Part shown: one piece after another, positions 19,259 through 63,699 of the stretch
Numbering within the stretch: position 1 is the stretch's first letter
How the letters are laid out: each line of letters opens with the position of its first letter
NCBI GenBank assembly: GCA_024277285.1
Contig: JAJRVM010000042.1
Span: 1 to 64,000 of the forward strand
Direction: 5' to 3'
Origin: Planctomycetota bacterium
GTDB lineage: Bacteria > Planctomycetota > Planctomycetia > Pirellulales > Pirellulaceae
Length of the DNA: 64,000 nt
Position numbers and translations under genes: made by a program
The notes under the pieces: generated by a model
The model's database searches: none
What the model was told of the DNA's origin: nothing
The model's input: the letters and a program-made list of their open reading frames with translations, nothing else

Positions 19259-19331
19259 GCGGGTGTAGCTCAGTTGGCAGAGCACAACGTTGCCAACGTT
19301 GTTGTCGTGGGTTCGAATCCCATCACCCGCT
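19259..19331 (+). tRNA. tRNA-Gly (anticodon GCC)
   Basis: The 73-base cloverleaf folds fully: acceptor GCGGGTG/CACCCGC with discriminator T, D arm GCTC/GAGC, anticodon stem CAACG/CGTTG with loop TTGCCAA, and T arm with the TTCGAAT loop. The anticodon GCC reads GGC/GGT glycine codons. CCA is not encoded. A T-run follows at 19333-19340, which might terminate part of the transcripts before tig. Confidence 0.97.
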
Positions 19332-19397
19332 CTTTTTTTTCACTTCATGGTGAGCTTGCCTTCAAGCTCCGTGAGACGGACCAAACGGCGCAAATCG

Positions 19398-20897
19398 ATG
19401 AGTTCAGACGACATTGAACCTGATGACGAAGGTCAAAGCCCGGCCGAGAGCGACGCGAAGCAAAAGCTGTCGCTTGAGGTTGAAATCGCGAGTCCGGGAG
19501 CATGTCAGCGGCATGTGACGGTCAAAGTTGCGCGCGAGGACATCGATCGTTACTTGGCCGAAGCATACGACGAACTGGCTCCAAAAGCGGAAGTTCCCGG
19601 GTTTCGTCCTGGTCGGGCTCCTCGCAAGCTAGTCGAGTCGCGTTTCAAGGAGCAGGTCACAGGCCAGGTCAAGGGCTCGCTGCTGATGGATGCGCTTGAG
19701 CAAGTGAGCGAAGAACACGAGTTTTCGGCAATTAGTGAGCCGGATCTTGATCTTGATGCGGTGACGCTTCCGGACGATGGTGCGTTGGCATTTGAGTTTG
19801 ACATCGAAGTGCGGCCCGATTTTAATTCCCCCCAATGGAAGGGCTTGAAGCTAACGCGTCAGGTGCGCGAGTACACGGACGACGATGTGAGCGAGCATCT
19901 GCGGCGGCTGTTGTCGAGCCATGGTGAATTGGTGGCACGCGACGGTCCCGTTGAAGCCGGCGATGCATTGGATGTAGATGTCAAGGTCACCGATGGCGAT
20001 ACCGTCGTCTCGGAATCAAAGAAAGCCCGGGTTCGGGTCTTGTCGGTTTTGAGCTTGCGAGATGCTACCATTGATGGTTTCGGTGATCTCATGGTAGGTG
20101 CCGAGAAAGGCGAGACTCGCAGCATCAAGATCACCATCAGTGATGGAGCGACCGATGAAGCGCTGCGTGGCAAGGAGGTCGACGTCGCTTTTACGGTCGG
20201 GAAGGTCAACTACATCAAGCTGCCGGAGTTGACGCAAGCCTATTTGGAGGAGCTTGGCGGATTCGAGGACCAGGATGAGCTGCTTGAGGCGATTCGCGAA
20301 GAGTTGGAGCGACAGGCTCAATATGCCCAGCAGCGGCAATTGCGCCAGCAGATCACAAACACGTTGACCCAGGATGCCGGGTGGGATTTGCCTCCCGAAC
20401 TGGTTAAACGACAGGCTCAACGTGAACTGGATCGGGCTGTATTGGAGTTGAAGTCAAGTGGTTTCAGTGCGGACGCGATTCAGGCCCATTCAAACCAGAT
20501 TCGACAGAATAGTCTGCGGTCGACGGAGACGGCATTGAAGGAACACTTCATTTTCGAACGCATTGCGGAAGATGAAGAAATCGACGCGACGGAGGCGGAT
20601 TTCGATCTCGAAGTCGAGTTGATTGCGCGTCAGGGCGATGAGTCCCCGCGTCGTGTTCGTGCTCGTTTGGAAAAACGAGGGCAAATGGATGCGTTGCGGA
20701 ACCAGATCATCGAGCGCAAAGTCGTTGACCTGATCTGCTCGGAAGCGGATTTCGAGGACGTGCCGGCGACCGACAGCGAGGAGGACACCTTTGCCGTCGA
20801 TTTGGCGCTGGCGGGTGGCCATGAGGCATCAACTATTCCCGAGGCGAAGCACGGCGGTGAAGCCGAAGATTTGCGTTCGCCGGTCGATCACAGTTGA
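19398..20897 (+). CDS. tig: Trigger factor, ribosome-bound chaperone/prolyl isomerase
   Basis: The 499-residue product meets nascent chains at the ribosome exit. The ribosome-binding signature GFRPGRAPRKLVESRF lies at about 74-89, a diverged FKBP-like prolyl isomerase domain at about 190-275, and the helical chaperone arms from 280 on (many Arg/Gln/Glu, e.g. EQLERQAQYAQQRQLRQQ-like pattern). The tail after about 465 is acidic and specific. The start is uncertain: ATG 19398 (MSSDDIEPDD) gives an acidic leader, ATG 19347 would add 17 residues; neither has a strong ribosome site. The frame cannot start earlier because the tRNA occupies 19259-19331. Linkage tig-clpP is common in bacteria. Confidence 0.9.
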   Translation: MSSDDIEPDDEGQSPAESDAKQKLSLEVEIASPGACQRHVTVKVAREDIDRYLAEAYDELAPKAEVPGFRPGRAPRKLVESRFKEQVTGQVKGSLLMDALEQVSEEHEFSAISEPDLDLDAVTLPDDGALAFEFDIEVRPDFNSPQWKGLKLTRQVREYTDDDVSEHLRRLLSSHGELVARDGPVEAGDALDVDVKVTDGDTVVSESKKARVRVLSVLSLRDATIDGFGDLMVGAEKGETRSIKITISDGATDEALRGKEVDVAFTVGKVNYIKLPELTQAYLEELGGFEDQDELLEAIREELERQAQYAQQRQLRQQITNTLTQDAGWDLPPELVKRQAQRELDRAVLELKSSGFSADAIQAHSNQIRQNSLRSTETALKEHFIFERIAEDEEIDATEADFDLEVELIARQGDESPRRVRARLEKRGQMDALRNQIIERKVVDLICSEADFEDVPATDSEEDTFAVDLALAGGHEASTIPEAKHGGEAEDLRSPVDHS

Positions 20898-21119
20898 GGC
20901 GTTTGATTTACCTCGTGGCTGACTGAGTATCTTGTACGCATATGGCGGGCGCAGCTGTTTGAGGGCGCCCCGGACTCGAAAGTAGTATCGCAGTAGATCA
21001 AATCGAAAGGGAGTTCGTGCCCGGTTCGCGAGTCGCGTTGTTCAAGACGCGGTGTGAATGTGCGAGTTCGATTCCCGTGCCGTATTTGGCAATCATTTTG
21101 TGCCCAAGGATCAGATGGC

Positions 21120-21743
21120 ATGAGTCGATCGTTTCCTGAACCCATTACCGATTCACATTCGTACCAATCGTATCAACGGCAACGCCAGTTGACGTTGGGC
21201 GACCTGCTGCTGGAGAACCGCATTGTGTTTCTTCAGGGCGAGATCTACACGGCCAATGCAAATGATGTCGTGATGAAATTGCTGTATTTACAGAGCGAGA
21301 ATCGGCGCAAGGACATTCACTTCTACTTGAACTCCCCGGGTGGGGATGTTGTGGCGACGATGGCAATTTACGACACGATGCAGATTCTTAGCTGCCCGGT
21401 CTCTACCTATTGCGTTGGTCAGGCGGCGAGTGGTGCGGCAGTGTTGCTAACGGGTGGGACGCCTGGCAAGCGATTTGCATTGCCACACGCTCGTGTCATG
21501 TTGCATCAGCCGTACGGCGGAGTGAGTGGCCAGGTTAGCGATATCGAGATTCAAGCGAATGAGATCCTGCGCAATCGGCAGATGTTGAACGAGATTATCG
21601 CAGAGCATTCCGGGCAGAAAATCGAAAAGATCGCTGAAGACACGGACCGCGATTTCTTCCTCAATGCGCAGGAGGCGAAGGAATACGGTTTGGTCGATGA
21701 GATCCTGAAGAGGCCACCGCTTGACGGTGAGGATGAGAAATAG
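21120..21743 (+). CDS. clpP: ATP-dependent Clp protease proteolytic subunit, first copy
   Basis: The 207-residue product from ATG 21120 (AAGGATC seven bases before) belongs to the ClpP serine protease family. Catalytic Ser is residue 104 in VGQAASGAAVLL, His is 129 in VMLHQPYGG, and the Asp lies in EDTDRDFF (about 173-178), so it should be active. Gly replaces the usual Met after the active Ser (AASG rather than AASM). It differs clearly from the second copy 210 bases downstream; paired ClpPs often build mixed two-ring barrels working with ClpX or ClpC. No clpX is in the window. Confidence 0.95.
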   Translation: MSRSFPEPITDSHSYQSYQRQRQLTLGDLLLENRIVFLQGEIYTANANDVVMKLLYLQSENRRKDIHFYLNSPGGDVVATMAIYDTMQILSCPVSTYCVGQAASGAAVLLTGGTPGKRFALPHARVMLHQPYGGVSGQVSDIEIQANEILRNRQMLNEIIAEHSGQKIEKIAEDTDRDFFLNAQEAKEYGLVDEILKRPPLDGEDEK

Positions 21744-21954
21744 TTACAGCAAGTACATGCGCACTGCTTGGCGGAGCGCATTGGACAGGGTCTGTTAGTG
21801 CGACGACCGGTCGCATAGAACGGGCCGAGCAGACGAGCTAATTGGCCACGGTCGGATTATCGGCTGATCCGTGGCTACGGAATCATTTAAAAACGAAATA
21901 ACTTCGCGAACGAGTCGTTCTCGCGGCACTTGTAATACGGAGCATTTGCGAGCG

Positions 21955-22551
21955 ATGCCACTGATCCCCTACGTAGTCGAAAAGAGCGGTCGCGAAGAAC
22001 GCGTATACGATATCTACAGCCGGTTGCTGAAGGATCGTATCATCTTTCTTGGTTCGAGTGTTAACGATGATGTCGCTAACTCCATCGTTGCCCAGATGCT
22101 GTTCTTGCAATCGGACGATCCCAAGTCAGAGATCCATTTTTACGTCAATTCTCCTGGCGGCAGTGTGAGTGCCGGGTTGGCGATCTATGACACCATGCAG
22201 TTTGTGACCTGTGACGTCGCCACCTACTGTATTGGCCAGGCCGCCTCGATGGGCGCGGTGCTCCTGACAGCCGGCGCCGAGGGGAAGCGGCATGCGCTAC
22301 CCAACGCGCGGATCATGATCCACCAGCCGTTGGCCGGCATGCAAGGAACGGCCGAGGAGATCATGATTCACGCCAAGGAATTTCGACGGATCAAGGATCG
22401 GATGAATGAAATCTTGATTCGGCATACGGGCCATCCGTTGGATAAAATCGAGAAAGATACCGATCGAGACTGTTTCATGACGGCTCAAGAAGCCAAGGAA
22501 TACCACTTGATCGACCAGGTTGTCGAGAAAATGGAACGTTCGGAATCATAG
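21955..22551 (+). CDS. clpP: ATP-dependent Clp protease proteolytic subunit, second copy
   Basis: The 198-residue product from ATG 21955 ([19 protein letters not shown]) is a canonical Clp[16 protein letters not shown] carries the catalytic Ser, [11 protein letters not shown] the His and EKDTDRDCF the Asp. GGAG lies 13 bases upstream of the start. The N-terminus is the typical one that is trimmed to form the axial loops. Together with the first copy and trigger factor it forms a protein quality block on one strand; the gaps (220 and 210 bases) leave room for internal promoters. Confidence 0.96.
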
Positions 22552-24300: not shown

Positions 24301-26532
24301 CTATAGTTCAAAGTGAAACGTATGGCAGAGCGAGTTCCAAAGGCGTTGCCCAAGTGTCCGAGTGCCGGCATGAATTTTGGCTCGACCGTGACCGCCGCTC
24401 AAGAGTCGCTGTTGATCGATGTCCAGAGGTACGCTGGCCTGATAGGTTTTCGCAAGAGCGTCGCGAGAACGTTGGGCCTTGGACGTCGGTGATGACGCGG
24501 AACCGGTTGCGTTCGAGACGCTGGCGGGAGTGACGGGGAGATCGGTTTGTGAGATCTGTGTGATGCGTCCGCTCAGGTGCCGGCCACGCAACTGCTGAGG
24601 AAACAGTTCGACAAACTGGTCGGTCCGCACCGATTCGATCGTCGATTCATCAATTGCCAGTACGGCCTCCATCTGCGTCGCATCGCCGATTTGACAGATC
24701 GGAACACCCTCATTCAGGAAGGCGTTCACGTTTTCCTGTTGCAGCGGATGTCCGGACCAGTAGGAGAGTGTTTCGGAGTGCTCGGGGCGGTCGATCGCGG
24801 GCATGGCGAAGATCATCCCGGCGCGGGGAGCGCGGATCGTCAAACGTTGTTGATCTTGCTTGCGCCGGAGGATCCTGCGGTCGAGCGATGCGATTGCTTC
24901 GGAAACTTCGGACATTTCCAACAGTGCCGCGTCACCGTCATAGGCTTGTAGTTGCAAGGCGGCGAGCCTGGCTGCCAAGACTTCGCGTTGGCCAAACAAC
25001 TGTGTAATAGCCATGGCGACGTCTCGGTTTTGCAACACGACCAAGGTCTGGCCACGCTGAACGTCTTGCCCTGGTTGTACGTTGATTTCGACAAGTGTTC
25101 CGGCGACATCAACGTATGCGGTCGCGGCATCACGCACTTGTACCTGGAAATCACAGGTTACGTAATGTGGCAGCGGGACCAGCATGATTGCGCACAGTAG
25201 CCCAGCAAGGATCCCGGTGGCGATCAACATTCGTAGTTTCTTCAATTGCCTTGTCCTCCCAGGAACGCTCAGGAAACGCATGAACTGCCAGGCTGGCACG
25301 AAGACCAGGCCATAGAGCGCAAAGATGACCAACAGTTGGCCGATAATTTGCAGCCCGAGCGGCACGAATACCCGGTACAGAAACCAGAGGATCGAAAACA
25401 CGACGACCCAACGATAAATCGATGCGGCGATGGCGTAAAGAACGAACAACCAGCGGCGGCGTTGTGGCAGAAAAGGGTCTTTCGGTTCGGGCAGGCCCAA
25501 GAACCACGCACCGAGCTTCCGTTGGACAACGGCTCCTGCCTTTTGACGCAAGTTGGGAACCTCCAAGACGTCGGCCAAGATAAAGTAGCCGTCGTAGCGT
25601 AGCAGCGGGTTGGCGTTGAACAACAATGTGCTGACTGAGCAAACGAACATGATGTCGAGGCAAAGGTAATGCAGCAGTCCAGCGTCGCTGAACCACCACA
25701 GGAACGTGCAGATGCTTGCCAGAATCAGTTCGATGTACATGCCCGCGGCGCCGATCGCGGCGCGTTGCCACTTGCTGCGCACCATCCACGAGTCGGAGAC
25801 GTTACAGTAGAGGCAAGGTGTCAGGACCAACAGCATCAATCCCATTTCGTGACACTCGCCGCCAAATCGTTTGCAGGCCAGCCCGTGTCCCAGTTCGTGA
25901 AGTACCTTGGTGCCGGCCAGCACCACTGCCAGCAGGAGCCAATTGTTCCCACCAAAGAACGCACCAAATTCGGGCAAGCGGCGCAGGAAGACATCGAACT
26001 GAGCGGTGATCAGCAGGAGCGCCGAGCTGATCAAGAATAACGCGGCCAATGCGCCAGGCCAGCTGAACAGCCAACCGCACGCGCCGTTCAGCCAATGTAG
26101 GAATCGGTCGGGGTTTACACCGGCGAAGCGAATGCACAAGATGTTGGACCAGTTGGCGTGCCGTTCTTGACGCTGATGTTGTCGGTGGCGTTCCAGAAGT
26201 TGTTCGCCCTGGGCGTCGCCGTCGGCGATTACGAGAGAATTGCGAAATAGCCGACCGACCAGCGTTTGAAGCTCTGACAATTCTAGTCGCTGGGGAGCGA
26301 ATTCGCGTTCAAATTGTTGTTGAATCTCGGCCGGACTTCGCTGGCCATCGAGTAGATTCAGGAGCGTGTACTCTTCTTGCTCGAAACGGTAGAACGACAA
26401 CGTGAGCGGGTCCTTGACGATCCAGTAGTTGCGTCCCTGGTAGGTTTGTTGCGAGGTGACCAGATCCTGACGCACACGCAATCGCAACGGACGTTTGGCA
26501 CTGTCGCTCAGGTGATTGTGTGACGCGAGCAT
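24301..26532 (-). CDS. PqqD-like / M50 site-2-protease-like membrane protein fused to a HlyD-type adaptor
   Basis: The 743-residue product combines three parts. Residues 15-100 (TYQGRNYWIVKDPLTLSFYRF, LDGQRSPAEIQQQFE) look like a PqqD-type RiPP-recognition domain. Residues 135-480 hold about eight membrane segments with HELGH at 212-216 and LLRYDGYF with Asp 314, the zinc ligands of M50 proteases. Residues about 495-743 are a lipoyl/HlyD-like half with GTLVEINVQPGQDVQRG and a helical hairpin. This fusion is typical of planctomycete genomes and of unknown function; processing or export of a peptide is inferred. Start: ATG 26532 has AAGGTG upstream; an alternative TTG at 26637 would add 35 residues. 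It follows the HlyD gene at 26653 on the same strand, so they are co-transcribed. Confidence 0.85.
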   Translation of the reverse strand: MLASHNHLSDSAKRPLRLRVRQDLVTSQQTYQGRNYWIVKDPLTLSFYRFEQEEYTLLNLLDGQRSPAEIQQQFEREFAPQRLELSELQTLVGRLFRNSLVIADGDAQGEQLLERHRQHQRQERHANWSNILCIRFAGVNPDRFLHWLNGACGWLFSWPGALAALFLISSALLLITAQFDVFLRRLPEFGAFFGGNNWLLLAVVLAGTKVLHELGHGLACKRFGGECHEMGLMLLVLTPCLYCNVSDSWMVRSKWQRAAIGAAGMYIELILASICTFLWWFSDAGLLHYLCLDIMFVCSVSTLLFNANPLLRYDGYFILADVLEVPNLRQKAGAVVQRKLGAWFLGLPEPKDPFLPQRRRWLFVLYAIAASIYRWVVVFSILWFLYRVFVPLGLQIIGQLLVIFALYGLVFVPAWQFMRFLSVPGRTRQLKKLRMLIATGILAGLLCAIMLVPLPHYVTCDFQVQVRDAATAYVDVAGTLVEINVQPGQDVQRGQTLVVLQNRDVAMAITQLFGQREVLAARLAALQLQAYDGDAALLEMSEVSEAIASLDRRILRRKQDQQRLTIRAPRAGMIFAMPAIDRPEHSETLSYWSGHPLQQENVNAFLNEGVPICQIGDATQMEAVLAIDESTIESVRTDQFVELFPQQLRGRHLSGRITQISQTDLPVTPASVSNATGSASSPTSKAQRSRDALAKTYQASVPLDIDQQRLLSGGHGRAKIHAGTRTLGQRLWNSLCHTFHFEL

Positions 26533-26652
26533 CTTGGGTAACACCTTACGCGTGTCGCGGAAGCTACCAGGATTCAGGGCAATCGTGTTGCCGCGGCTGG
26601 TGTCCCGAATTCGATGAACGACTGCCGCACCCCACAAGGGATCGTGAAGCGC

Positions 26653-27639
26653 TCATTTGCCGACATGAATGGTCATCGTCGCATTCATGCCAGGGCCGAG
26701 GATCCAATGGTTCGCATGGATGCGGTTTTCGACTTCGGCACGGATGCGATACTTGTCTCCCGCTTGCACCAACGGGCTCACAAAGACGACTTTGCCAGGC
26801 AACTGAACGACTTGGCCACGAGCACGTTGGATCTGTACCGTAACTTGGCGATTGACAACATCTTCCGGGTTGAAATCATGCGCGTTGAGGAAACCCTCGA
26901 CGCGCAGATGATCAAGGCGAATGATACGCAAGACCGGTTCTCCCGCGTTGACCCATTCGGCTTGGTCGCGCAAAACATCCAGGACGATGCCTCCAAAGGG
27001 CGCGATGATTTGGCGGCGGCGCATGTTGTCTTCGGCAGCGGCGACTGCGGTCGTTTCGATGTCGGCTGTCATTCCGGCGATCTTCTGCTCCAATCGACTG
27101 CGGTCAATTTGCAGCTGCGCTTTTTGCCGAGTGAGCTTGAGGCGGCGTATTTCCGTCTTGGAAATGGTTCCGGGGGAATGGCGGTTGATCTCCGTGCTCT
27201 GCGTTAACTCGGCGTCCGCAACCCCCAACGCCGCTTCCGAATAGCGAATGTCAATGTCGTCCTGTGACTTGGTCAAGGCCACATCACGTTTGAGTTCGGC
27301 CGCGAGCCGATCGAACTGGGGTTGGCGGTCATCGATCTTGGCAAGCAATTGGCCGGGCTGTACCTGGTCGCCTTCATCGACATGCATCGTTGCGATTGCT
27401 CCGGCCTCATTCGCCGATAATTCGACATCGTTGATCAGGAAGACCTGGCAATGCGCAATGACGCATTGCGACGTTGCTTGTGATGTTGCTTGTGATGTTG
27501 CCGTCCAGTGACCGGCGTAGCCCGTGATGTTGGTGCTGGGACGCGCTGTCGCACGGTCTTGCTCGGCCGAATGGGCGATTGTGGCGATGGCAACCAGCAA
27601 GATCCACGCTGTAGTACGGAGTGTCATCGTGTTCCTCAT
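26653..27639 (-). CDS. HlyD/RND-type periplasmic adaptor protein
   Basis: The 328-residue product has a signal peptide (TTAWILLVAIATIAHSAEQ) and the membrane-fusion-protein plan: a split lipoyl domain (NEAGAIATMHVDEGDQVQPGQLLAKID at about 75-102 and APFGGIVLDVLRDQAEWVNAGEPVLRI at about 205-233), a helical hairpin between (about 105-200), and a beta-barrel after (VEGFLNAHDFNPEDVVN). Such adaptors bridge an inner-membrane transporter and an outer-membrane channel. A TSQA motif is repeated by a 12-base tandem repeat at 27473-27496, just before the first lipoyl half. It lies between the two other adaptor-like genes of this cluster; no ABC or RND pump is encoded here. Confidence 0.88.
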   Translation of the reverse strand: MRNTMTLRTTAWILLVAIATIAHSAEQDRATARPSTNITGYAGHWTATSQATSQATSQCVIAHCQVFLINDVELSANEAGAIATMHVDEGDQVQPGQLLAKIDDRQPQFDRLAAELKRDVALTKSQDDIDIRYSEAALGVADAELTQSTEINRHSPGTISKTEIRRLKLTRQKAQLQIDRSRLEQKIAGMTADIETTAVAAAEDNMRRRQIIAPFGGIVLDVLRDQAEWVNAGEPVLRIIRLDHLRVEGFLNAHDFNPEDVVNRQVTVQIQRARGQVVQLPGKVVFVSPLVQAGDKYRIRAEVENRIHANHWILGPGMNATMTIHVGK

Positions 27640-27687
27640 CTAGATGGATGCGTTTATCGGGACGCGAAGCCAAGCCGGTGCGGCCCG

Positions 27688-29814
27688 TCAAAACCAAAAC
27701 AGCAAACGACTCTGGACGGTATCGATCAAATCATGAAACCAAGCGTAACCCAGCGACTGCTCGCCGCAGTGGATCTTGGCCACCACGGTCGCATCCGCTT
27801 TCAGTTCCGGCAGCTCGCTGGCATCGATCGCGACCCGAATACGTACACTGCTGCCCAGGTCTTCGCGTTCGATGGCCACAGGGTCGACGGCAATTAACGA
27901 GCCCTCGAATTGTTCCCCCGCATGTGAGGACAGGACGAACGTTACGCGTAAGGGGCGCTCGCTTCTGGTGACCGCGTCAAGTATGTGGCCGCTGTGTCGA
28001 GCGGGCACATAGAGTTCCAACTCCCACTGCGCCGAGGGGTCGACCATCGCCATTAAAGCTTGCCCCCGTTGCACCGGTCGGTGCAGTAGTTTGTCCCGCA
28101 CATGCCATGTCACAACTTGGCCGGCACGGTCCGCACGCACCACCAGTTGCTGTTCCTTCTGATGTACGAGTTGTAATTGCCGCTCAATACTCAATGCCTG
28201 TTGACGCAGTTGCAATAATTCGCCGTTGAGCCGGTTCTGTTGCGCTGTATCAAGATGTGGATCGTCCAGCAACGCACGCTGCAAGGAGAGGATCTGCTCG
28301 CGAGTTGCCATCTGTTTGCCCACTAACGACGCGATCTCAACATCAAGGTTCGTATTCCTGAGTTTGGCCAGGACTTGTCCTGCTTCAACAAATTGGCCAT
28401 GTTCGACCGGTACGTTGGTGATGACACCGTCTTCATGCGCGAACACGGTGCGGCGTACCTCGGGTTGCATCGTACCCCGGACGGGAATAGTAAAATCTGC
28501 TTTGGTGGCGACCATTGCTACGGTCGCGGCGACGCACAGGATAAGGATCAGTAATGTCTTGGCGAAGTGGCGGCCGATCAACGCATCGCAGAGCTTTCCC
28601 AGCGTTCGCCAGAGCGGCATCAGGAACAGGTTTTCGTGTTCCAATGCGTTGTGCAACGCGCGTCTGCTGTGATGACAGATCTGTTCGATTCGCTGCTGTT
28701 GCCGATCGTCTTCCGTTGCCTCGGAAAGTTGCTCAAAAATGAGTGCTCCGAACGGTTGAATTCGATCCGGTTTCTTGCGGTCCGTGGTCGTTGGGTCGCG
28801 CGTCTCGTGACGAGAATGTTTGGGAGGGAAGAGCGGCAGCAGGCCGCAACGTCGCACATGGGAAATGTCGACGTATTGGTTCCAGCTCGATTCGATTTGG
28901 GGCGGAATGTCGTCGCCATGTGTGTTGAGCCAGGTCGGTTCACGGCCTTGGAGCACGCGTGCGGCCAGTCGTCCGAGGTGGCGGACCTGCTGCGCGCGAC
29001 GATCGATGCTGTCCAACCCGCTCACGACTTTCAGGCGACACTGGCGACCGGTTCCCAATGCCAGACTCACGCGGTCAACGCCCACGAGACGCCGTGCCTC
29101 GTTCACGATGCAAAACGCAGTCTCTTCCACGCCCAAATGGCTGTGGATTCGGCTCAAAAATTGCTCGAATTGCCGCGACCAATCGTGATCGGCACGCAAG
29201 TCACGTAGCAGCTGAACTTGCAAGAACGTCTCGGCTAGTTCGCTGACCTGTAACAAATACTGCAGGTAACCTCGTTCTGTTGCCGGCCCGCGATGCGATC
29301 GCTGAAAAATTTCCACAATGGCTGTTACTCGGCCTTCCAAACGCAGTGGAACTAGCAGCAACAGGTTGTCGGTTGGATTGGTCGTTCTCAACTCGGTCGA
29401 TTTGCTTTGCGGACCTACGGCGATCGGTTTTGCGCCAGCCGCCACGTGACGCAGGACTTCAAGATGCTGCGACTCACGTGTGTTGGCCCATGGACCGCTG
29501 GCCTGCTCGAAGTTGGTTTGCGCTACCAGTCGGGCAGCACCTTGTGAATCGCCTGCCCACACTGCTCCTCCCACGGATGCCAGGGCTGCGGTCGTCTGTT
29601 GCAGGAACTGCGTGAAATAGGATTCGTAGGATAGATCTTGGCGGGAAAGCTCGGCGATTTCACGTGTGATCTGTTGCACTTGTCGGCGAGTGGCCAGCAC
29701 TTGCTCGGGGGACGCGGATGCAACGCTGTCGCGCGCGCCCTCGCGTGACGTTGCCGCGGATGTTTCGGCCGTTGTTTCTTCGAGCGTGGGGTCGATCGTT
29801 GAGCTGGTTTTCAT
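27688..29814 (-). CDS. GAF-domain protein fused to a membrane HlyD-type adaptor
   Basis: The 708-residue product from ATG 29814 (MKTSSTIDPTLEETTAETS) starts with a disordered Thr/Ser/Glu-rich segment and a short coiled coil (about 35-65). GAF-like sensory regions follow at about 75-190 and 215-350 (LSRIHSHLGVEETAFCIVNEA, VGVDRVSLALGTGRQ). One membrane segment lies at about 418-438 (TLLILILCVAATVAMVA). The periplasmic C-terminal half is HlyD-like: EDGVITNVPVEHGQFVEAGQVLAKL, a helical hairpin, and VVRADRAGQVVTWHV. So a cytosolic ligand-binding domain is linked directly to an export adaptor. It is the first gene of a three-gene strand-uniform set (48 bases before the HlyD gene). Confidence 0.85.
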   Translation of the reverse strand: MKTSSTIDPTLEETTAETSAATSREGARDSVASASPEQVLATRRQVQQITREIAELSRQDLSYESYFTQFLQQTTAALASVGGAVWAGDSQGAARLVAQTNFEQASGPWANTRESQHLEVLRHVAAGAKPIAVGPQSKSTELRTTNPTDNLLLLVPLRLEGRVTAIVEIFQRSHRGPATERGYLQYLLQVSELAETFLQVQLLRDLRADHDWSRQFEQFLSRIHSHLGVEETAFCIVNEARRLVGVDRVSLALGTGRQCRLKVVSGLDSIDRRAQQVRHLGRLAARVLQGREPTWLNTHGDDIPPQIESSWNQYVDISHVRRCGLLPLFPPKHSRHETRDPTTTDRKKPDRIQPFGALIFEQLSEATEDDRQQQRIEQICHHSRRALHNALEHENLFLMPLWRTLGKLCDALIGRHFAKTLLILILCVAATVAMVATKADFTIPVRGTMQPEVRRTVFAHEDGVITNVPVEHGQFVEAGQVLAKLRNTNLDVEIASLVGKQMATREQILSLQRALLDDPHLDTAQQNRLNGELLQLRQQALSIERQLQLVHQKEQQLVVRADRAGQVVTWHVRDKLLHRPVQRGQALMAMVDPSAQWELELYVPARHSGHILDAVTRSERPLRVTFVLSSHAGEQFEGSLIAVDPVAIEREDLGSSVRIRVAIDASELPELKADATVVAKIHCGEQSLGYAWFHDLIDTVQSRLLFWF

Positions 29815-30218
29815 ATCGCCACGCACCTTGTTTGCCGATTTCCTTGCGGCGCGCGACGCGCACCGCCGCAATCTCAGACACCCTGAATTGTTGTCGCGGG
29901 ATGAACCGCTAGCATCGCCCCCTTGGCCATGCGAAGCCGGCCCACGAAGCCAGACAGTCTGATTTCGACGCAGTGTGGCACGGCACTCCGTGCCGTGAGG
30001 CTTCGGCTCTTGCCGCTTCAGTCCTAGACTTCAAGACTAGGCCTGTGTCACCCCATCCGGGGGTTCTTGCCAGCATTTTTCGATCCCAGACAGTCTGGTT
30101 TTGGCGATCCAGACAGTCTGGTTTTGGCGATCTCACGCACGGCCGAACCAGGATGTGGCTTGGCCAACGGTTCGTCGTTCCAGCACCGCGCTGGAATTGT
30201 AGTTCGGCTCGCGCCGTG
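29815..30218. other. 400-base intergenic region with three CCAGACAGTCTGG palindromes
   Basis: Upstream of the GAF-HlyD gene and downstream of the SYLF gene, both on the minus strand. The palindromes lie at 29951, 30086 and 30109. No gene was found in it. Confidence 0.6.
29951..30121. repeat. Palindrome cluster A: three copies of CCAGACAGTCTGG
   Basis: Copies lie at 29951-29961 (CAGACAGTCTG), 30086-30098 and 30109-30121 (both CCAGACAGTCTGG followed by TTTTGGCGA). The last two form a direct repeat with a 23-base period. The same motif recurs in cluster B at 34630-35027, always in this orientation with a GTTT-like right flank. Confidence 0.85.
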
Positions 30219-31481
30219 CTAGCGAATAGCACCCGTTCGGGGGGTTGCGTTGGCGGAAGGTTGACCTGCGGCGGGGGTGGAAACCGTGGCCACATGTTGC
30301 GAATAGGTGCGCAGCAAGCCATAGGTCTGTTGGAACTCTTGGCGTTGCAGCAACGCATTGTATTTGCCTTCTTTGGCGATTGCATCGAATCGCTGCATCG
30401 CTTGCTGCAAGCTCTCCTTGGTCGGGATCCCGCGGCCTGTGTAGATTTCCTCAGGCAGCGAAAGGTAGTTCCGCCATGACGCATCTAGTATGGCGCCGAG
30501 GTTGGTCGCCGATTTGGCGAGTTCCTGGCGAGTGATTTCCAGGGTCTGTCCGGTGGGAGTTGCCGGACCGGCTAACGTGCCCGCAGGTGGTCGTCCCGTT
30601 GTTGGCGGTGCAAGGGGACTGGTTACTGCGTTTGTCCCGTTGGCGGGAGTTGTGGGCGGAAGCACACCATTTGCGATCGGTGCGGCAGGCGTTACCGCAG
30701 CGGGAGCGATTGCAGCGGGGGCTGCCGCGATCAGGGGCGGAGTTGCCGGAGGAGGAACAGCGGGGGCGGTAGTGGGAACGGGGCCTCCGGTGTAAGTGTT
30801 CAAGGCAGCGAGCAATTGGGCTGCGGCCAGTGGCATTTGGGCATTGGCAGCGACCGGGCGGCCATCGGCAGCAAGCCCTGCGGCGCCATAGAAGGCTTGT
30901 GTTTCCGCCATGTTCATCTGAATGACGGACCCATCGATCGCGGCACCGGCAAAGAGGCCACGGCTACGCGAATACGAGTAGATTTCGGCTTGCAGCCGAG
31001 CATCGGTTGCCGCTGATGCTTGACGCCCTACTGGGCCAGCGGATGCAGCGGCATCGACACCAAGCGTCAATTTCCCATTCATCAAGTTGTTTATGCTCTT
31101 GCGCGTGTTGAAAACGAGTACGACGTCGGTTGACTGAATACCCGCCTGGAAGCCGACGCTACCACCGGTCATGGTCACAAAGGTTGGGGGGAGCCACGCT
31201 CCATTCTGATCTCGCACCACCGCGACGCCTTTTCCACGCCGGCCACCGATCACGAAGCCTGCCTTGATCATATTGGGAACGATCACGATGCCCTGGGCCT
31301 TTTGGAGCATTGAACGAGGGATGTTCTGGTTGGGTAAGGTCATGAACTCGTTGAGCACACTCGTCGATTTGGCAACGGTATCTGCGCCGGCCGGCTGGTA
31401 CTGAGCGTTGGCTCTGGGCACATTGGCCAGGCAGGCCAATGCGACCATGGCGAGTAATGCTGGAAGGGCTCGATTTCTCAT
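30219..31481 (-). CDS. Secreted SYLF (Ysc84-related) lipid-binding domain protein
   Basis: The 420-residue product has a signal peptide (residues 1-26, ending PRANAQ) and ATG 31481 behind AAAAGGAG. Residues about 30-210 form a SYLF domain: AQGIVIVPNMIKAGFVIGGRRGKGVAVVRD, GGSVGFQAGIQSTDVVLVF and YSRSRGLFAGAAIDGSVI are highly typical. SYLF domains bind membranes/phosphoinositides in eukaryotes; bacterial roles are unclear. A Pro/Ala/Thr linker (about 245-320) leads to an extra C-terminal helical segment (about 325-405, EITRQELAKSATNLGAIL, LQRQEFQQTYGLLRTYSQHV) not usual in short SYLF proteins. It lies 440 bases downstream of pduT on the same strand. Confidence 0.88.
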   Translation of the reverse strand: MRNRALPALLAMVALACLANVPRANAQYQPAGADTVAKSTSVLNEFMTLPNQNIPRSMLQKAQGIVIVPNMIKAGFVIGGRRGKGVAVVRDQNGAWLPPTFVTMTGGSVGFQAGIQSTDVVLVFNTRKSINNLMNGKLTLGVDAAASAGPVGRQASAATDARLQAEIYSYSRSRGLFAGAAIDGSVIQMNMAETQAFYGAAGLAADGRPVAANAQMPLAAAQLLAALNTYTGGPVPTTAPAVPPPATPPLIAAAPAAIAPAAVTPAAPIANGVLPPTTPANGTNAVTSPLAPPTTGRPPAGTLAGPATPTGQTLEITRQELAKSATNLGAILDASWRNYLSLPEEIYTGRGIPTKESLQQAMQRFDAIAKEGKYNALLQRQEFQQTYGLLRTYSQHVATVSTPAAGQPSANATPRTGAIR

Positions 31482-31922
31482 GACGGGTGAACTCCTTTTC
31501 GACTAGGTCGTGGTGGCGTGCCGCAAATTCTCGTTCTTGGTGCAAAGGGTTCCAGTCGCCGGTGCGATTATCCTCAAGGGCAATATGCTCTCAAGCGAAC
31601 CGCGACGTCCGAGCCATCCGCACTTTGGCGGGCAATGCTATTCTCGAGCCATCGACGGCCATCCCTCAGCTTGAAGCGTGCGTGCGTTTTGCCAGCGGCT
31701 GGCGCGCAGCGGCGTACGGGTGCGGGGATTGTATCGCCCGAAGACGTGGCGGAGCAATAGAGGATGTGCTAGCGGTCGAGGTGGGTGAGGAACGTCCAAC
31801 GTCGAGGGCCAGCGGTGTCTATTTGGGCAGGTTGCCGCTTGCTGCGGCAATCGTCCTCACCTGTCAGCACAGCACTTTTTGCCGAGTGTGCCGGGGTTGA
31901 ACGCGTCCCATCTGTTTCGAGG
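31482..31922. other. 440-base intergenic region between pduT and the SYLF gene
   Basis: It must hold the SYLF leader (ribosome site AAAAGGAG at about 31490-31497). I see no gene, repeat or terminator in the rest. Confidence 0.5.
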
Positions 31923-32477
31923 CTAGACAAATTCCCGAATGATTTCAGGGCGTGGGCGGGGTATGACCACTTTTTCGACCAACAGTCCACGTTGCTCGAT
32001 AACCGCGGCGCCAACTTGAGTGGCTTCTTCCACGGCGGCCACATCTCCGGTAAAGGAGACGAATCCTTTGCCGCCGATCGCCATTGCCAGGTGAATATTC
32101 ACAAACTGGATAGGAGCCGACTTGATGGCGGCATCGGCCGCCTCGACGACCGACGCGACACTGAAACTCTCGATCACGCCAAGCGCCTTGAGTTCGGGCA
32201 CATGTTCGACGCCACTGATCGCCGGGAATACGGCGGGATGGACGTTCGAGATGACAAATTGGTCGACAACCGTGTGAGCGCCGACGGCCGCTCCCGCCTG
32301 GATGCTCGCTTGCACCGCGTCGACGTCACCGCCAACCAGGACAATGTACTTTCCGGGGCAGATGGTTCGGTTGAGAACGATTTCGACATTGGCTGCCTTC
32401 AGGATGGTATCGGCGATCTCAAAGCCTTTGGCAATGCTTGATGTTTCGACGATTCCGATTGCCGCGCCCTTCTTCAT
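31923..32477 (-). CDS. pduT: Tandem-BMC microcompartment shell protein, PduT type
   Basis: The 184-residue product has two BMC domains (about 1-90 and 95-180). KGAAIGIVETSSIAKGFEIAD and ALGVIESFSVASVVEAADAAI start the two repeats. LNRTICPGKYIVLVGGD, with Cys 40, matches the PduT segment whose cysteines from three subunits hold a 4Fe-4S cluster in the trimer pore; the tail VIPRPRPEI is also PduT-like. It should sit in a bacterial microcompartment shell and pass electrons across it. Start: ATG 32477 is preferred over a TTG two codons upstream. It is 347 bases downstream of the PduS gene, its known partner. No other shell or enzyme genes of a compartment are in the window. Confidence 0.92.
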   Translation of the reverse strand: MKKGAAIGIVETSSIAKGFEIADTILKAANVEIVLNRTICPGKYIVLVGGDVDAVQASIQAGAAVGAHTVVDQFVISNVHPAVFPAISGVEHVPELKALGVIESFSVASVVEAADAAIKSAPIQFVNIHLAMAIGGKGFVSFTGDVAAVEEATQVGAAVIEQRGLLVEKVVIPRPRPEIIREFV

Positions 32478-32824
32478 GGTCAATGCCTTACCTTGTATGT
32501 ACGTGACTCAGTTGGTTTCAATTCAGTTGGTCTGGATGTCCGTGTTGCGACAAACGTAACCGTTCACGGCCGAAGTTCGCGAAACACGCAGCCAGGATCT
32601 CACCTATCGTCCTAATCGTAATCGCTCACGGTTTTCTCCCATGTATGAGTCAGCCCACTCCCGCGCACAATCGGCACTTCGAGTCACCGTGCATCCGCCT
32701 CGCCGGCATTGCGCACTGCGCGTGGCGACGCTTCATAGGAGGAGGATGTCGGTTCACAAGCAGACCACGAATTTCGAGTAGGATGAAGCCCAAAAAACCT
32801 GAAAGCACCGCAATTGGTCACCTG
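32478..32824. other. 347-base intergenic region between pduS and pduT
   Basis: It holds a CGTAACCGTTCACGGCC half-site of the dispersed palindrome at 32555-32571 and the pduT leader. No gene was seen. Confidence 0.5.
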
Positions 32825-34165
32825 TTAACTGTGCGTCTTGATGACGATATGGGTTGCGCTGACGGCGGTTACACGCCCCGCGACACTGGCGTGCACCGGA
32901 CAGCCTAACTTGTCGTGATCGACATCTGCGATCATGGTGCCGCGTTCGACCGAGTCGCCTGATTGCACGACGGCCTGAGCCGGTTGCCCGATATGCGTGT
33001 TCAAGGGAATCGATACGGATGAAGGATTCCAGTCACGTTCGACAAACGGCGCTTTGCGATCGTACGGCGTCAATCCCAGACGCTGATAAAGCTTGGATAT
33101 CGGCACTTCGCGACCGTGGCGAGCTGGATGAGGTGGGCGGAAAAGCTGTTCCAGTTCCGCTTCCGTCCGGCTTAGGTTGTTCTTTCGCAGCAGCGCTTTT
33201 GCATCGACACAGATGTTCTTGGGATCGAGTTGTTCGGGGCAGGCGATATACGAACAGATATTGCATTCGCAGCAATACTGTGCCCACAGACTACCACGCT
33301 GTTTGGCTTCCCCCGTCATCAGCAATGTTCGCATGACGCGGTGAGGTTCAATCGGATAGCCCAGAATGTAGCGTGGGCAAAGCTCGGTGCAAAGTGAACA
33401 CTGATCGCATTGCCCGTGGCCGATGCGTGTGTAAGTCTCTTGCGATTGTGTTTTGCGACGCACGAGGTAGTGATCGGAGGGAAGCACAATCAAGCCGGCG
33501 GTCGTCTTCGCGATCGGTTGTGTCAAGTCGCGGCTTACGCCACCCATCATCACGCCGCTGACCAGGATCGTCGGATCGTCCACGGTGCAGCCTCCGGCCG
33601 CACGCAGGCAGTCGGAAAACGAAGTGCCAATGGGTACCACGGTGGTGTAGGGGGATGCGACGGCGCCGGTCACCGTGATGTACTTGTCAACGACTCCTTG
33701 CGATTCCAGGGCCTTACCAACGTTGATAATGGTCTCGACATTGTCAACGACACATCCCACGTGCAAAGGCAGTCCACCGGGAGGTATCTGTTTCCCCGTG
33801 ATTTCGTAGACCAGTACGTACTCGTCACCGGCGGGGTAAACGTCTTCATATACGAAGAACTCGATACCCGACTGATGGGCCCGCTCACGCATCGCTGGGA
33901 GGATGTCTTCGTTTTTGCGTTTCACCGCGATCGTCACTTGCGACGCACCCGTTTGGTCGCGCATGGCCTCAAGTCCGCGAAAGAACGCATCTTGCTCCCG
34001 AATCATCGATTCGCGGTCTTTTTGCAATAGCGGTTCGCACTCGGCACCGTTGGCGATAAGGCGATCCACCTGGGCTTCCAACTTCTTGAAGGTGGGAAAC
34101 CCGGCGCCGCCAGCGCCAATGACACCTGCGGCGCGCACTTGGTTCAGAAATTCTTGGCTACCCAA
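32825..34165 (-). CDS. pduS: PduS-type microcompartment flavo-iron-sulfur protein (RnfC-like)
   Basis: The 446-residue product matches PduS/RnfC. VRAAGVIGAGGAGFPTFKKL near the N-terminus is the glycine-rich RnfC signature, with NGAECEPLL and a flavin/NADH-binding Complex1_51K-type region up to about 220. Two 4Fe-4S motifs lie at about 250-310 (GQCDQCSLCTELCP and CCECNICSYIACP). The C-terminal part (GCPVHASVAGRVTAVSA) is a barrel-sandwich segment. In Pdu microcompartments PduS reduces cobalamin and hands electrons to PduT; here the acceptor is unknown. Start is TTG 34165, supported by GGGAG about eight bases upstream. Transcription goes on to pduT. Confidence 0.92.
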   Translation of the reverse strand: MGSQEFLNQVRAAGVIGAGGAGFPTFKKLEAQVDRLIANGAECEPLLQKDRESMIREQDAFFRGLEAMRDQTGASQVTIAVKRKNEDILPAMRERAHQSGIEFFVYEDVYPAGDEYVLVYEITGKQIPPGGLPLHVGCVVDNVETIINVGKALESQGVVDKYITVTGAVASPYTTVVPIGTSFSDCLRAAGGCTVDDPTILVSGVMMGGVSRDLTQPIAKTTAGLIVLPSDHYLVRRKTQSQETYTRIGHGQCDQCSLCTELCPRYILGYPIEPHRVMRTLLMTGEAKQRGSLWAQYCCECNICSYIACPEQLDPKNICVDAKALLRKNNLSRTEAELEQLFRPPHPARHGREVPISKLYQRLGLTPYDRKAPFVERDWNPSSVSIPLNTHIGQPAQAVVQSGDSVERGTMIADVDHDKLGCPVHASVAGRVTAVSATHIVIKTHS

Positions 34166-34629: not shown

Positions 34630-35027
34630 CCAGACAGTCTGGTTTCGGCTTGTAGCTTGGGATTCCATCCCGAGCATGAACAGGCTCACGTCTCCAGAAC
34701 GCCATCTATCGACACCGAGCCAGCAACGGACCGGTAATCCCAGACAGTCTGAATTAGAAGTCGTTGGTGTGGCACTGGCTGAGTGAGTGGCCACATGCGA
34801 TACCTCACGAACGGACTTCAAGCACGAACGGAGCCAGTGTTCGTTGCGACATGGGCGCGTGGTTCCGTTGGAACGTGGGTAGGAGCTGCACACTGCGTGC
34901 GTTGAACGGCGGTGTGGTGGTGGCGCGATTCGTGGCGTGGGATTTCTTGGCACTGGGGGGGCTCGTCTTGGCATGCAGTGGCACCAGATTAGGAACCAGA
35001 CAGTCTGGTTTCGGTCAGACAGTCTGG
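34630..35027. repeat. Palindrome cluster B: four copies of CCAGACAGTCTGG
   Basis: Copies lie at 34630-34642, 34740-34751, 34996-35008 and 35015-35027. The first two share the left flank CCGGTAATC; the last two form a 19-base direct repeat ending GTTTCGGT. All seven copies in the window (clusters A and B) have the same orientation of the asymmetric right flank. Confidence 0.85.
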
Positions 35028-37860: not shown

Positions 37861-39282
37861 GTGTTGTTACCCGCTCATGACCGGCCCGAAACTTATTCGG
37901 CCTATCGTTCTGTTGCCAAAGTGCGTTTAAACGATGGCAGCGGGAACGCCGTCTTGGGGCTCAAGGAGACCGGACTGGTCGTCCATTTTGATGACGGTGA
38001 AGCGCTCCATTTCGACTTGGAGGGGCGATTGTTGCGTGTCGCTGTGCCGGGCCTCCAATGGCGGCGCGGCCTCTCTGGAAGGATGCTGCGGCTGAGTCGT
38101 CAGGCAACGGGTGACGCGGCGGCGAGAGACACTGTTTGGAGTGCTCCCTCGCCGGGCGACCGTTCTTCGACAGTTGCGGGAGTGAACCGTGACGCGGTTG
38201 CCAACGTCGCCAAAACGCCAAGTGTCGTCGATGAGGCGGATTGCGAGCCGCGGCAACCGGTCACTCTGATCCGCGCGGCAAACCGGCGCATGCAAGCGGC
38301 GCACGCAGCATATGAAGCAGCGTTGGGCACCGATGACGACGAGCAAACGTCGCTACGCGACGCGGTTACGCGCGCCGCTGCGTTTGACGAACATGCCGCC
38401 ACACACGACCTGGATGCATTTCGAGAGCTTTACCATGACATTCCCATCTTGCCACCGGACCAATATCAGTCGTTGGTACTGCTGGCCAGTGACGGGTGCA
38501 GTTACAACCAATGCACGTTTTGCAATTTCTATCGGGACAGGCAATACCGTCTTCGTCCGTTAGGTCAATTCCAGCAACATGTCGACGCGGCAGTTCGATA
38601 CCACGGTGCTGCACTGGCCGCGCGACGCGACATTTTCTTGGGGCAGGCAAATGCGCTGCTTGGACCGCGCGCATGGCGCGAGGAGATTCTTCAGTATGTC
38701 AACCAGCGGTTCGAGTTTCCACCATCCGATCGACCGGCCCAGCAAGGTTCGTGGTGGCGAGGTTCTCCGACTCGCTTTAACGGGATTACCTCGTTCTTGG
38801 ACGCGCTGGCCGGCACGCGTATCACCGTGGACGAATTCGCGGCCTTGCGGCGATTGAATCTCAAGCAAGTTTATATCGGCTTGGAATCGGGCGCGGCCGA
38901 GTTGCTTCAATGGCTGCGCAAGCCCGCAGAACCACAGCAGATGCTTGGAGCGGTCCGCGCTGCGAAACAAGGTGGTGTGGCGACCGGCGTGATCGTGCTG
39001 ATCGGCGTGGGGGGGGAACGCTACTTTGATGCCCATGTGCGAGAAACGGTCGCGCTCATTCACGCGATGCAATTGGCGGCGGGTGATTTCATTTACCTAT
39101 CGCCACTCGTACCGGCGCATGGTGCCGAATACGACGACCTGGCCGCCGAGGCCGATATTCAGCCTTTGAGTCCGCCGCGAATGAAGGAACAGGAGCAATT
39201 ATTGCGCAGTGGGATCGGCAGCTTGCCAAGGGGGCACGGGCCTTACGTGGCACATTACGAAGTGGAGCGTTTCGTCTATTGA
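37861..39282 (+). CDS. Radical SAM protein
   Basis: The 473-residue product starts at GTG 37861 with GGAGTG about ten bases before. The N-terminal 150 residues form an uncharacterised domain with an Ala/Arg-rich stretch. The radical SAM cluster motif is DGCSYNQCTFCNFYRD (about 211-226), CX4CX2C rather than the commoner CX3CX2C, a spacing seen in a subgroup of uncharacterised bacterial radical SAM proteins. Barrel features follow: RRDIFLGQANALL, LKQVYIGLESGAAELLQWLRKP and GVIVLIGVGG. There is no B12-binding or extra cluster domain at the C-terminus. The reaction is unknown; the SAM-cleaving core seems intact. Confidence 0.88.
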   Translation: MLLPAHDRPETYSAYRSVAKVRLNDGSGNAVLGLKETGLVVHFDDGEALHFDLEGRLLRVAVPGLQWRRGLSGRMLRLSRQATGDAAARDTVWSAPSPGDRSSTVAGVNRDAVANVAKTPSVVDEADCEPRQPVTLIRAANRRMQAAHAAYEAALGTDDDEQTSLRDAVTRAAAFDEHAATHDLDAFRELYHDIPILPPDQYQSLVLLASDGCSYNQCTFCNFYRDRQYRLRPLGQFQQHVDAAVRYHGAALAARRDIFLGQANALLGPRAWREEILQYVNQRFEFPPSDRPAQQGSWWRGSPTRFNGITSFLDALAGTRITVDEFAALRRLNLKQVYIGLESGAAELLQWLRKPAEPQQMLGAVRAAKQGGVATGVIVLIGVGGERYFDAHVRETVALIHAMQLAAGDFIYLSPLVPAHGAEYDDLAAEADIQPLSPPRMKEQEQLLRSGIGSLPRGHGPYVAHYEVERFVY

Positions 39283-62973: not shown

Positions 62974-63699
62974 ATGGAGTTAGCCGCCCGGTTGGTCAAC
63001 TTGGAAAAAGACTACGTACTGAAGAGCGAAACGGTGCATGCATTGCGTGGTTGCACGTTTGATGTGCCGATTGGCGATTACGTCTCGATCATGGGGCCTT
63101 CCGGATCGGGCAAGAGCACGTTGCTGAACTTGCTGGGGTGTTTGGATCGTCCGACCGGTGGGTCGCTGTTCCTGGGGCGCCAGGATGTCAGCATGATGAA
63201 TGACGACCAATTGTCGTACACGCGTGCGACCAGCATCGGCTTCGTGTTTCAGTCCTACAACCTCATTCCGCAACTGACGGTGGTCGAGAATATTGAAGTG
63301 CCGCTGTATTACCAGGGGCGATTGGCGCCGGAGGATCGTCAGCGTTGCCTTGATTTGGCCGGAATGGTTGGGTTGGGCGACCGCTTGGCTCACCGCCCAA
63401 CGCAGTTGTCGGGTGGCCAGCAACAGCGTGTGGCGATCGCGCGAAGCTTGGTGAACGACCCGTACTTCATTTTGGCCGACGAGCCGACGGGGAACTTGGA
63501 CACCAAGACGTCGGAGGAGATTCTGCTGATCTTCGAGCAGTTAAGCGAAGCTGGCAAGACGATCATTATTGTCACTCACGAAGACGAAGTGGCTTCTTTC
63601 ACGAAACGCATCATCCGCCTGCGTGACGGTTCGGTTCAGACCGATGTGCCGAACGAAAATCGCGTATTTCTAGCAGACCGAATGGTACAGAGGCAGTAA
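62974..63699 (+). CDS. ABC transporter ATP-binding protein, LolD/MacB type
   Basis: The 241-residue ATPase has Walker A GPSGSGKST (about 46-54), the Q-loop VFQSYNLIPQ, signature LSGGQQQRVAIARSL, Walker B YFILADEPTGNLD and the H-loop IIVTHE. The extended TSEEILLIFEQLSE and short length place it in the group that drives MacB-like or LolCDE-type permeases, which extract lipoproteins or export substrates without full translocation. No permease gene lies beside it in the window; the next gene is on the other strand. GGAG lies seven bases before the ATG. Confidence 0.93.
   Translation: MELAARLVNLEKDYVLKSETVHALRGCTFDVPIGDYVSIMGPSGSGKSTLLNLLGCLDRPTGGSLFLGRQDVSMMNDDQLSYTRATSIGFVFQSYNLIPQLTVVENIEVPLYYQGRLAPEDRQRCLDLAGMVGLGDRLAHRPTQLSGGQQQRVAIARSLVNDPYFILADEPTGNLDTKTSEEILLIFEQLSEAGKTIIIVTHEDEVASFTKRIIRLRDGSVQTDVPNENRVFLADRMVQRQ

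Follow-up and report, generated by a model that had tools for sequence, protein, structure and literature searches.

The question raised by this stretch of 64,000 nucleotides (64 kb; here called the window) is what three adjacent genes do that combine a sensor-type GAF domain, an M50-type membrane metalloprotease and several HlyD-type adaptors and have no pump gene next to them. The genes are co-directional, occupy positions 24301-29814 on the minus strand and encode a GAF-HlyD protein, a short HlyD protein and an M50-HlyD protein. On balance, and with some reserve, we favor the reading that their products make up the section of a secretion machinery for very large surface proteins that sits in the inner membrane and the periplasm. 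The reading builds on a leader-recognition fold in the M50 protein, on an unvarying protease site, on a short SecA-like ATPase as recurrent partner gene and on giant proteins with a common N-terminal motif that are linked to related loci and co-occur with them. The type of locus is already published (PMC4452313). The three genes and their parts are the following.

27688-29814, minus strand: gene of the GAF-HlyD protein (708 residues from ATG), with a cytosolic GAF-type part, one predicted membrane helix and a HlyD adaptor
28729-29130, minus strand: GAF domain of this protein (residues about 229-362; Pfam)
28507-28566, minus strand: predicted membrane helix between its GAF and HlyD halves (residues 417-436; helix in the structure model and hydrophobic stretch, topology presumed)
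26653-27639, minus strand: gene of the short HlyD or RND-type adaptor (328 residues), with a signal-peptide-like N-terminus
24301-26532, minus strand: gene of the fusion of an RRE/PqqD-like, an M50 and a HlyD part (743 residues from ATG)
26224-26487, minus strand: RRE/PqqD-like N-terminal domain of the M50 protein (residues 16-103; profile and predicted fold)
25885-25899, minus strand: HELGH zinc motif of the M50 protein (residues 212-216)
25591-25593, minus strand: Asp314 of the M50 protein, candidate third zinc ligand in NPLLRYDGY (alignment)
24301-25176, minus strand: HlyD adaptor half of the M50 protein (residues about 453-743)

Translations and Pfam confirmed what the first-pass annotation had described here, i.e., three co-directional genes, two of them fusions, with gaps of 48 bases between the GAF-HlyD and the short HlyD gene and of 120 bases between the latter and the M50-HlyD gene. 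The longest frames of the GAF-HlyD and the M50-HlyD gene start at TTG codons, at 29871 and 26637, respectively. M50, HlyD and GAF are the Pfam domains found above cut-off in the set. The GAF-HlyD protein matches PF01590 (GAF, E 5.6e-5) and PF13437 (HlyD_3, E 1.5e-11), and the strand and helix pattern of its AlphaFold2 model (mean pLDDT 81.8) suggests a possible second GAF-like stretch at residues about 63-171 (29302-29628), for which Pfam gave no call. Its adaptor half resembles MacA/MexA-type adaptors in Foldseek, where the top 50 matches of both the GAF-HlyD and the M50-HlyD model were adaptor chains only. The short HlyD protein matches HlyD_3 (E 5.6e-18) and, narrowly, TIGR01730 (95.4 bits, cut-off 94.9), and its N-terminus reaches a maximal 15-residue hydropathy of 1.91. 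PADLOC returned no anti-phage defence match for the three proteins.

The N-terminus of the M50 protein was postulated to be a PqqD-like domain, i.e., a recognition element (RRE) of the kind that binds the leaders of ribosomally synthesized and post-translationally modified peptides (RiPPs), and this assignment held. The Pfam model PqqD (PF05402) did not match the window protein alone even at E 1, while it matched four of 21 close relatives (best E 0.04) and, at E up to 1, seven of the 18 proteins in a wider alignment (best E 1.6e-6). The profile A5 matched the PqqD structure 3g2b at positions 17-102 with E 4.4e-4, and residues 16-103 are predicted to fold into a small sheet and three helices matching leader-bound RRE proteins. 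Since plain Pfam gave no match, it is this profile and fold evidence by which the N-terminus is taken as an RRE; the RRE/PqqD-like fold is thus supported by modelling and profile comparison, and the domain would bind a leader. Its presence suggests that a specific leader exists.

The M50 part carries both elements that had been read from the window protein, HELGH at 212-216 and Asp314. His212, Glu213, His216 and Asp314 are invariant in 21/21 close proteins and in 18/18 proteins of the wider alignment, the window protein being included in both sets and the 17 others of the wider set sharing 22-58% identity with it. The alignments therefore support a site conserved as if catalytic, with putative proteolytic activity, and because the zinc-site residues do not vary among the 18 aligned proteins, catalysis is favored over an idle pore.

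Which proteins might carry the leader is suggested by relatives of the locus on plasmids. M50-protein relatives were found by tblastn in 79 plasmid records, and 15 plasmid loci were opened for gene content. The nine adjacent giants that were read in these loci (L088-L094, L127 and L128) all carry a motif near their N-terminus, namely MEPRVLLSA, IEPRILLSA, LEPRFLLSA, LEPRVLLNA, LEPRFMFDA, LEPRLLLSA, LEPRLLLAA, LESRQLFDG and LEARYMFDA; the annotated start of the L094 giant comes 14 codons after the motif. The giant genes range in length from about 12 kb (Thalassospira) to 49 kb (Variovorax). Two of the giants, from beside two plasmid loci, were scored with the LEPR-XLL model (NCBIfam NF012209, LEPR-8K) and exceeded its cut-off of 17 bits with 27.4 and 26.4 bits. 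This model names the motif only, and the DAA/DGA-type and the planctomycete LExRxLLA-type sequences are wider variants that were seen by eye or with our own motif model A4. In the first 70 residues of eight giants the hydropathy maxima were 0.51-1.75, compared with 1.91 and 2.45 in two signal-peptide-like window proteins, to which the value of 1.75 comes close. The small RiPP-type cargo of the first-pass annotation is thus not borne out, as the linked genes encode giants with an N-terminal ExR motif.

The motif was also followed through 244 planctomycete genomes, 75 of which have the M50 protein; four or five candidates per genome were scored in the M50 and SecA-like searches, and the genome tallies for SecA-like, LEPR-XLL and A4 rest on the matches listed. 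LEPR-XLL was tallied above cut-off in 47/244 planctomycete and 1/14 control genomes, and the M50 protein is present in 40 of the 43 listed genomes with such a match (Fisher test 1.6e-21; 3.9e-18 if the four unlisted ones all lacked it). Model A4 was built from ten planctomycete motif proteins encoded near the three genes, two of them from L052, a locus within genome G003 of the sample; four of 14 candidate rows were left out of the training, L012 and L041 as not fitting and L068 as well as the row of L052 at 13212 as DAA type. Two or more A4 matches were listed for 38 genomes, 35 of them with M50 (Fisher test 4.9e-18), and single matches for 50 genomes, 20 of them with M50, which is close to background. 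By LEPR-XLL or A4 together, 56 of 60 genomes with the motif have the M50 protein. The two A4 matches of G228, which has no M50 domain, are weak, and a motif match in G189, in a 138-residue frame interrupted by a stop, is probably due to chance. Of the 143 LEPR places, nine are no more than 15 kb from an M50 gene compared with 1.5 expected (Poisson 3.4e-5, for a distance chosen afterwards and with the similar genomes G003 and G211 treated as independent). The strict motif occurred in two of 676 open reading frames (ORFs) of the planctomycete loci and the window compared with 0.05 in shuffled sequences, which shows its rarity and is no linkage control.

As motor, a SecA-like protein comes into view. 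A SecA-like frame with a length of 649-751 residues was found in each of 16 genomes that have the three genes, and it adjoins them in three. A second SecA match of 1227-1389 residues, likely the housekeeping SecA, is present in 14 of the 16; such a long SecA was not seen in G009 (second match of 559 residues) and G012 (957 and 665 residues). Across the planctomycete sample, 54 genomes have a listed SecA-like frame of 590-800 residues and 52 of these carry M50, compared with 75/244 overall (Fisher test 2.7e-32). In 30 of the 54 the frame lies within 10 kb of the M50 gene; this count is the 32 adjacent cases minus G199 and G225, dropped with SecA-like frames of 913 and 1445 residues beside M50. 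One match to the M50 region under the wider alignment, in a 622-residue frame of G030, a genome counted as M50-negative, was left out of the counts. These sequence comparisons suggest that a short SecA-type ATPase is usually the partner of the M50 module, for which it would act as motor. That the M50 protein alone replaces the transporter, as had been proposed from the window, does not agree with the short SecA in 16/16 genomes and its proximity in 30/54, even though versions of the cluster with no annotated SecA exist. A gene of the TolC family was found in 23/23 genomes with the three genes, and this co-occurrence is not specific, because 7/14 control genomes were also positive.

The plasmid loci show the partners side by side. 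The fullest order, in L086, is giant gene, DUF3467, GAF-HlyD, PqqD-M50-HlyD, SecA-like, short HlyD and TolC, and TolC and further HlyD genes are present in the plasmid clusters. Pfam found SecA_DEAD in 5/5 putative ATPases tested (L081, L083, L084, L086 and L087) and GAF in both HlyD partners tested (L083 and L086). Public names hide the system, because the SecA_DEAD-containing proteins of L081, L083, L084 and L086 go under the names prepilin peptidase or DEAD/DEAH box helicase. A second version (L082, L119, L120 and L125) consists of TolC, short HlyD, HlyD and M50-HlyD, has no annotated SecA, and no GAF domain was detected in its HlyD partner. Ligand gating by the GAF domain, another element of the first-pass annotation, may thus apply to the version seen in the window, while it is not general. 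L085 encodes DUF3467 and TolC and likewise no annotated SecA. Because no SecA-like gene is annotated in these five loci, in a plasmid gene table that is incomplete, SecA seems not to be universally needed, and the motor would therefore be either replaceable or supplied from elsewhere. ABC genes are not annotated in the 15 plasmid stretches except for a type I secretion pair about 3 kb from the genes of L121, with L126 being unannotated altogether. In L119, a plasmid of E. coli CX15, the cluster with no annotated SecA or GAF lies beside a 13-kb giant gene with the motif LESRQLFDGA. Among 5426 complete E. coli genomes, 24 contain TolC-HlyD-HlyD-M50 DNA of this locus, 22 of them at least 80% of it, and 21 of its 25 places are plasmid-borne.

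Conservation in planctomycetes was analyzed in 80 related loci; they come from named genomes, whose titles are nearly all planctomycete. The order could be evaluated in the 54 loci with more than 4.2 kb of sequence on the upstream side of the M50 gene, and in 46 of these tblastn found the GAF-HlyD and the short HlyD gene there on the same strand; because it is kept so often, the gene order is beyond chance. Within the DNA examined, a SecA-like gene occurs in six and a DUF3467 gene in 18 of the 80 loci. The recurring neighbours were clustered and ten representatives scanned with Pfam, smaller groups being left out; they comprise a SecA-like protein, DUF3467, MOSC, an amino-acid permease, pyridoxal-phosphate (PLP) enzymes, TPR, a DUF748-like protein, an ABC-2 permease and one protein without family. 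The ABC-2 permease, of which one representative was scanned, stands for six planctomycete loci and lies 7-10 kb upstream on the opposite strand. Several neighbour groups on the minus strand overlap the position of the HlyD gene and were taken to be antisense shadow ORFs, and the count was redone with tblastn. DUF3467 is a small conserved gene that adjoins the module in both phyla (plasmid loci L083-L086 and L123, i.e., 5/15, and the 18 planctomycete loci); two proteins scanned have 93 and 136 residues. It may be an accessory factor of the module.

An ABC or RND pump or a TolC-type gene was not found next to the three genes in the window when 28 of its ORFs were scanned with Pfam, in agreement with the first-pass annotation, and the sole transporter-type ATPase among these ORFs, an ABC ATPase, is encoded at a distance of 33 kb (62974-63699). 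Nor was an ABC or RND gene seen between the three genes in the related loci, so that a pump gene displaced from between them here finds no counterpart there.

Taken together, a secretion route can be proposed in which a giant cytosolic protein would have no Sec signal peptide and instead carry an N-terminal LExRxLL- or LExRxxF-type leader. This leader would be bound by the RRE-like domain of the M50 protein, as RREs bind RiPP leaders. Translocation would be driven by the short SecA-like ATPase, whose gene neighbours the operon in some relatives, is located elsewhere in others and is presumably also present in the source genome. The M50 site, acting at the membrane or within it, could trim the leader, the three proteins, in whatever stoichiometry they may assemble, might form a periplasmic tube to a TolC-type channel with their HlyD modules, and the GAF part would regulate, and perhaps gate, assembly or activity.

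Several observations weigh against this proposal. In the window itself, neither a SecA-like nor a DUF3467 gene nor a motif protein was found, and the one relaxed motif match, at 21210, falls in a Clp protease gene; no TolC-family protein was found among the 28 scanned ORFs. To the five plasmid clusters without annotated SecA have to be added six of the 15 plasmid loci in which no motif-bearing giant was seen: L121 and L125 have a neighbouring candidate without motif, L126 is unannotated, and L122-L124 have no giant in the stretch read. Among the 75 M50 genomes, 19 show no motif by the listed LEPR-XLL matches or by at least two A4 matches (some have one A4 match), and conversely, G103 and G244 have motif proteins but no M50 domain under the wider M50 alignment, with matches in the adaptor region only. 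The Fisher tests ignore kinship, so that the same clades could be marked by M50 and by motif or SecA genes alike. With its short length, the LEPR model also matches 7/14 control genomes at E up to 1, compared with 1/14 above cut-off. In one of 12 planctomycete motif proteins near the three genes, that of L052 at 13212, the motif is preceded by a stretch resembling a membrane helix (3.14; others 0.65-1.61), and the motif may have a different role such as anchoring at the surface. Finally, the M50 core was modelled with low confidence.

The surroundings of the genes comprise further features. A near-palindrome, CAGACTGTCTG, occurs in seven copies in one orientation, in clusters at 29951-30120 and 34631-35026, compared with 0.01 expected; the first cluster lies directly upstream of the GAF-HlyD gene, and the 13-base palindromic form was not found in 131 loci searched. 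Upstream of the three genes, at 30219-34165, Pfam identified a Ysc84-domain protein, a BMC-domain protein and an RnfC-like flavin/iron-sulfur protein, which together look like a minor portion of a bacterial microcompartment locus. Downstream, at 19259-22551, lie a tRNA-Gly, a trigger factor gene and two tandem Clp protease genes. One more gene deserves a line of its own.

37861-39282, plus strand: radical SAM protein (PF04055), 8 kb from the three genes

The closest known system is the secondary-SecA locus, described to comprise a short or secondary SecA_DEAD protein, M50, HlyD, GAF-HlyD and in some cases OEP/TolC, with hosts including Planctomycetes and Proteobacteria and with some SecA copies not co-encoded with the partners (Kamneva, Poudel and Ward, 2015, PLoS One; PMC4452313). 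Genes of Methylobacterium extorquens AM1 are named there for a locus of this type (PMC4452313). Its M50-HlyD, GAF-HlyD and further HlyD or biotin-lipoyl proteins are all present in the window. The main text of that article, in which the broader biological role was called completely unknown, has no occurrence of PqqD, LEPR or adhesin (PMC4452313); the RRE fold, the conserved active site and the motif-bearing giants as probable cargo are added here. The fold and the link to the giants were not found in the literature searched, although a preprint could exist. With type I and peptidase-containing ABC exporters (HlyB-HlyD-TolC, colicin V type), the system has HlyD adaptors and a TolC-type channel in common. 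In the peptidase-containing exporters, a leader peptidase is joined to the transporter. In contrast to type I secretion, the window set has no ABC protein beside it, leader reader and protease are the RRE and the M50 part fused to an adaptor, the motor candidate is SecA-like and the proposed signal is N-terminal.

Other explanations have to be weighed against the secretion of giants. In the type I-like exporter proposed in 2015, SecA is the ATPase and M50 a possible pore (PMC4452313), which would be proteolytically idle, with undefined cargo. The many predicted helices in the structure model of the M50 protein fit such an inner-membrane pore and the SecA partner was confirmed, whereas the zinc site, invariant across 18 aligned proteins, is unexpected for an idle pore, the RRE domain suggests a specific leader, and a cargo association was found here; we regard this version as rather unlikely. 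Distinctly unlikely, in our view, is a RiPP-type system, in which a small precursor would be bound by the RRE, cut by M50 and exported via the HlyD parts. To the RRE fold it could add the radical SAM protein encoded upstream on the opposite strand, whose class has RiPP enzymes among its members, the small conserved neighbour DUF3467, and the alignment of the M50 protein to two RiPP metalloprotease models. The daptide model NF041824 aligns along its N-terminal and M50 parts with E 7.6e-52, but its 176.7 bits stay below the cut-off of 300, and the YydH/LiaK epipeptide model NF058609 reaches 44.8 bits compared with a cut-off of 225; with 379 and 246 positions, respectively, both models are shorter, and neither match extends into the HlyD half. 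Daptide and epipeptide metalloproteases concern small peptides, but the large linked genes here are giants, and no RiPP-modifying enzyme was among the ten neighbour representatives scanned. A precursor could have been missed, because genes under 80 residues were not called.

A sensor or quality-control protease complex, with GAF as input, M50 cutting a membrane regulator and HlyD in a structural role without any secretion, would suit the GAF domain and the M50 family, which is known for regulated intramembrane proteolysis. It appears very unlikely given the TolC and further HlyD genes of the plasmid clusters, the cargo linkage and the four variants in which GAF went undetected. That the set is a chance operon or the displaced fragment of an ordinary tripartite pump is hardly credible: there is no pump gene beside it in the window, and an ABC-2 permease lies upstream on the other strand in the group of six loci, but the order is kept in 46 of 54 loci and no ABC or RND gene was seen between the three genes.

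Returning to the secretion of giants, the more far-reaching claim that this is a distinct secretion pathway is put forward tentatively, as a serious possibility that falls somewhat short of being probable. An LExR-type leader on giant proteins of Planctomycetota and Proteobacteria would be read by an RRE fused to an intramembrane protease and a HlyD adaptor, and the cargo would be threaded to TolC and cleaved en route, with a shortened SecA as motor or, in the SecA-less versions, with a different ATPase or none. If true, this pathway would unite a Sec motor, RiPP-type recognition and a type I conduit in one machine, and an RRE would work in the secretion of bulk protein rather than for peptide natural products. 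Should the link to the cargo hold, planctomycetes and proteobacteria would have a route to put motif-bearing proteins of thousands of residues on their surface, and the export signal of these proteins would be named.

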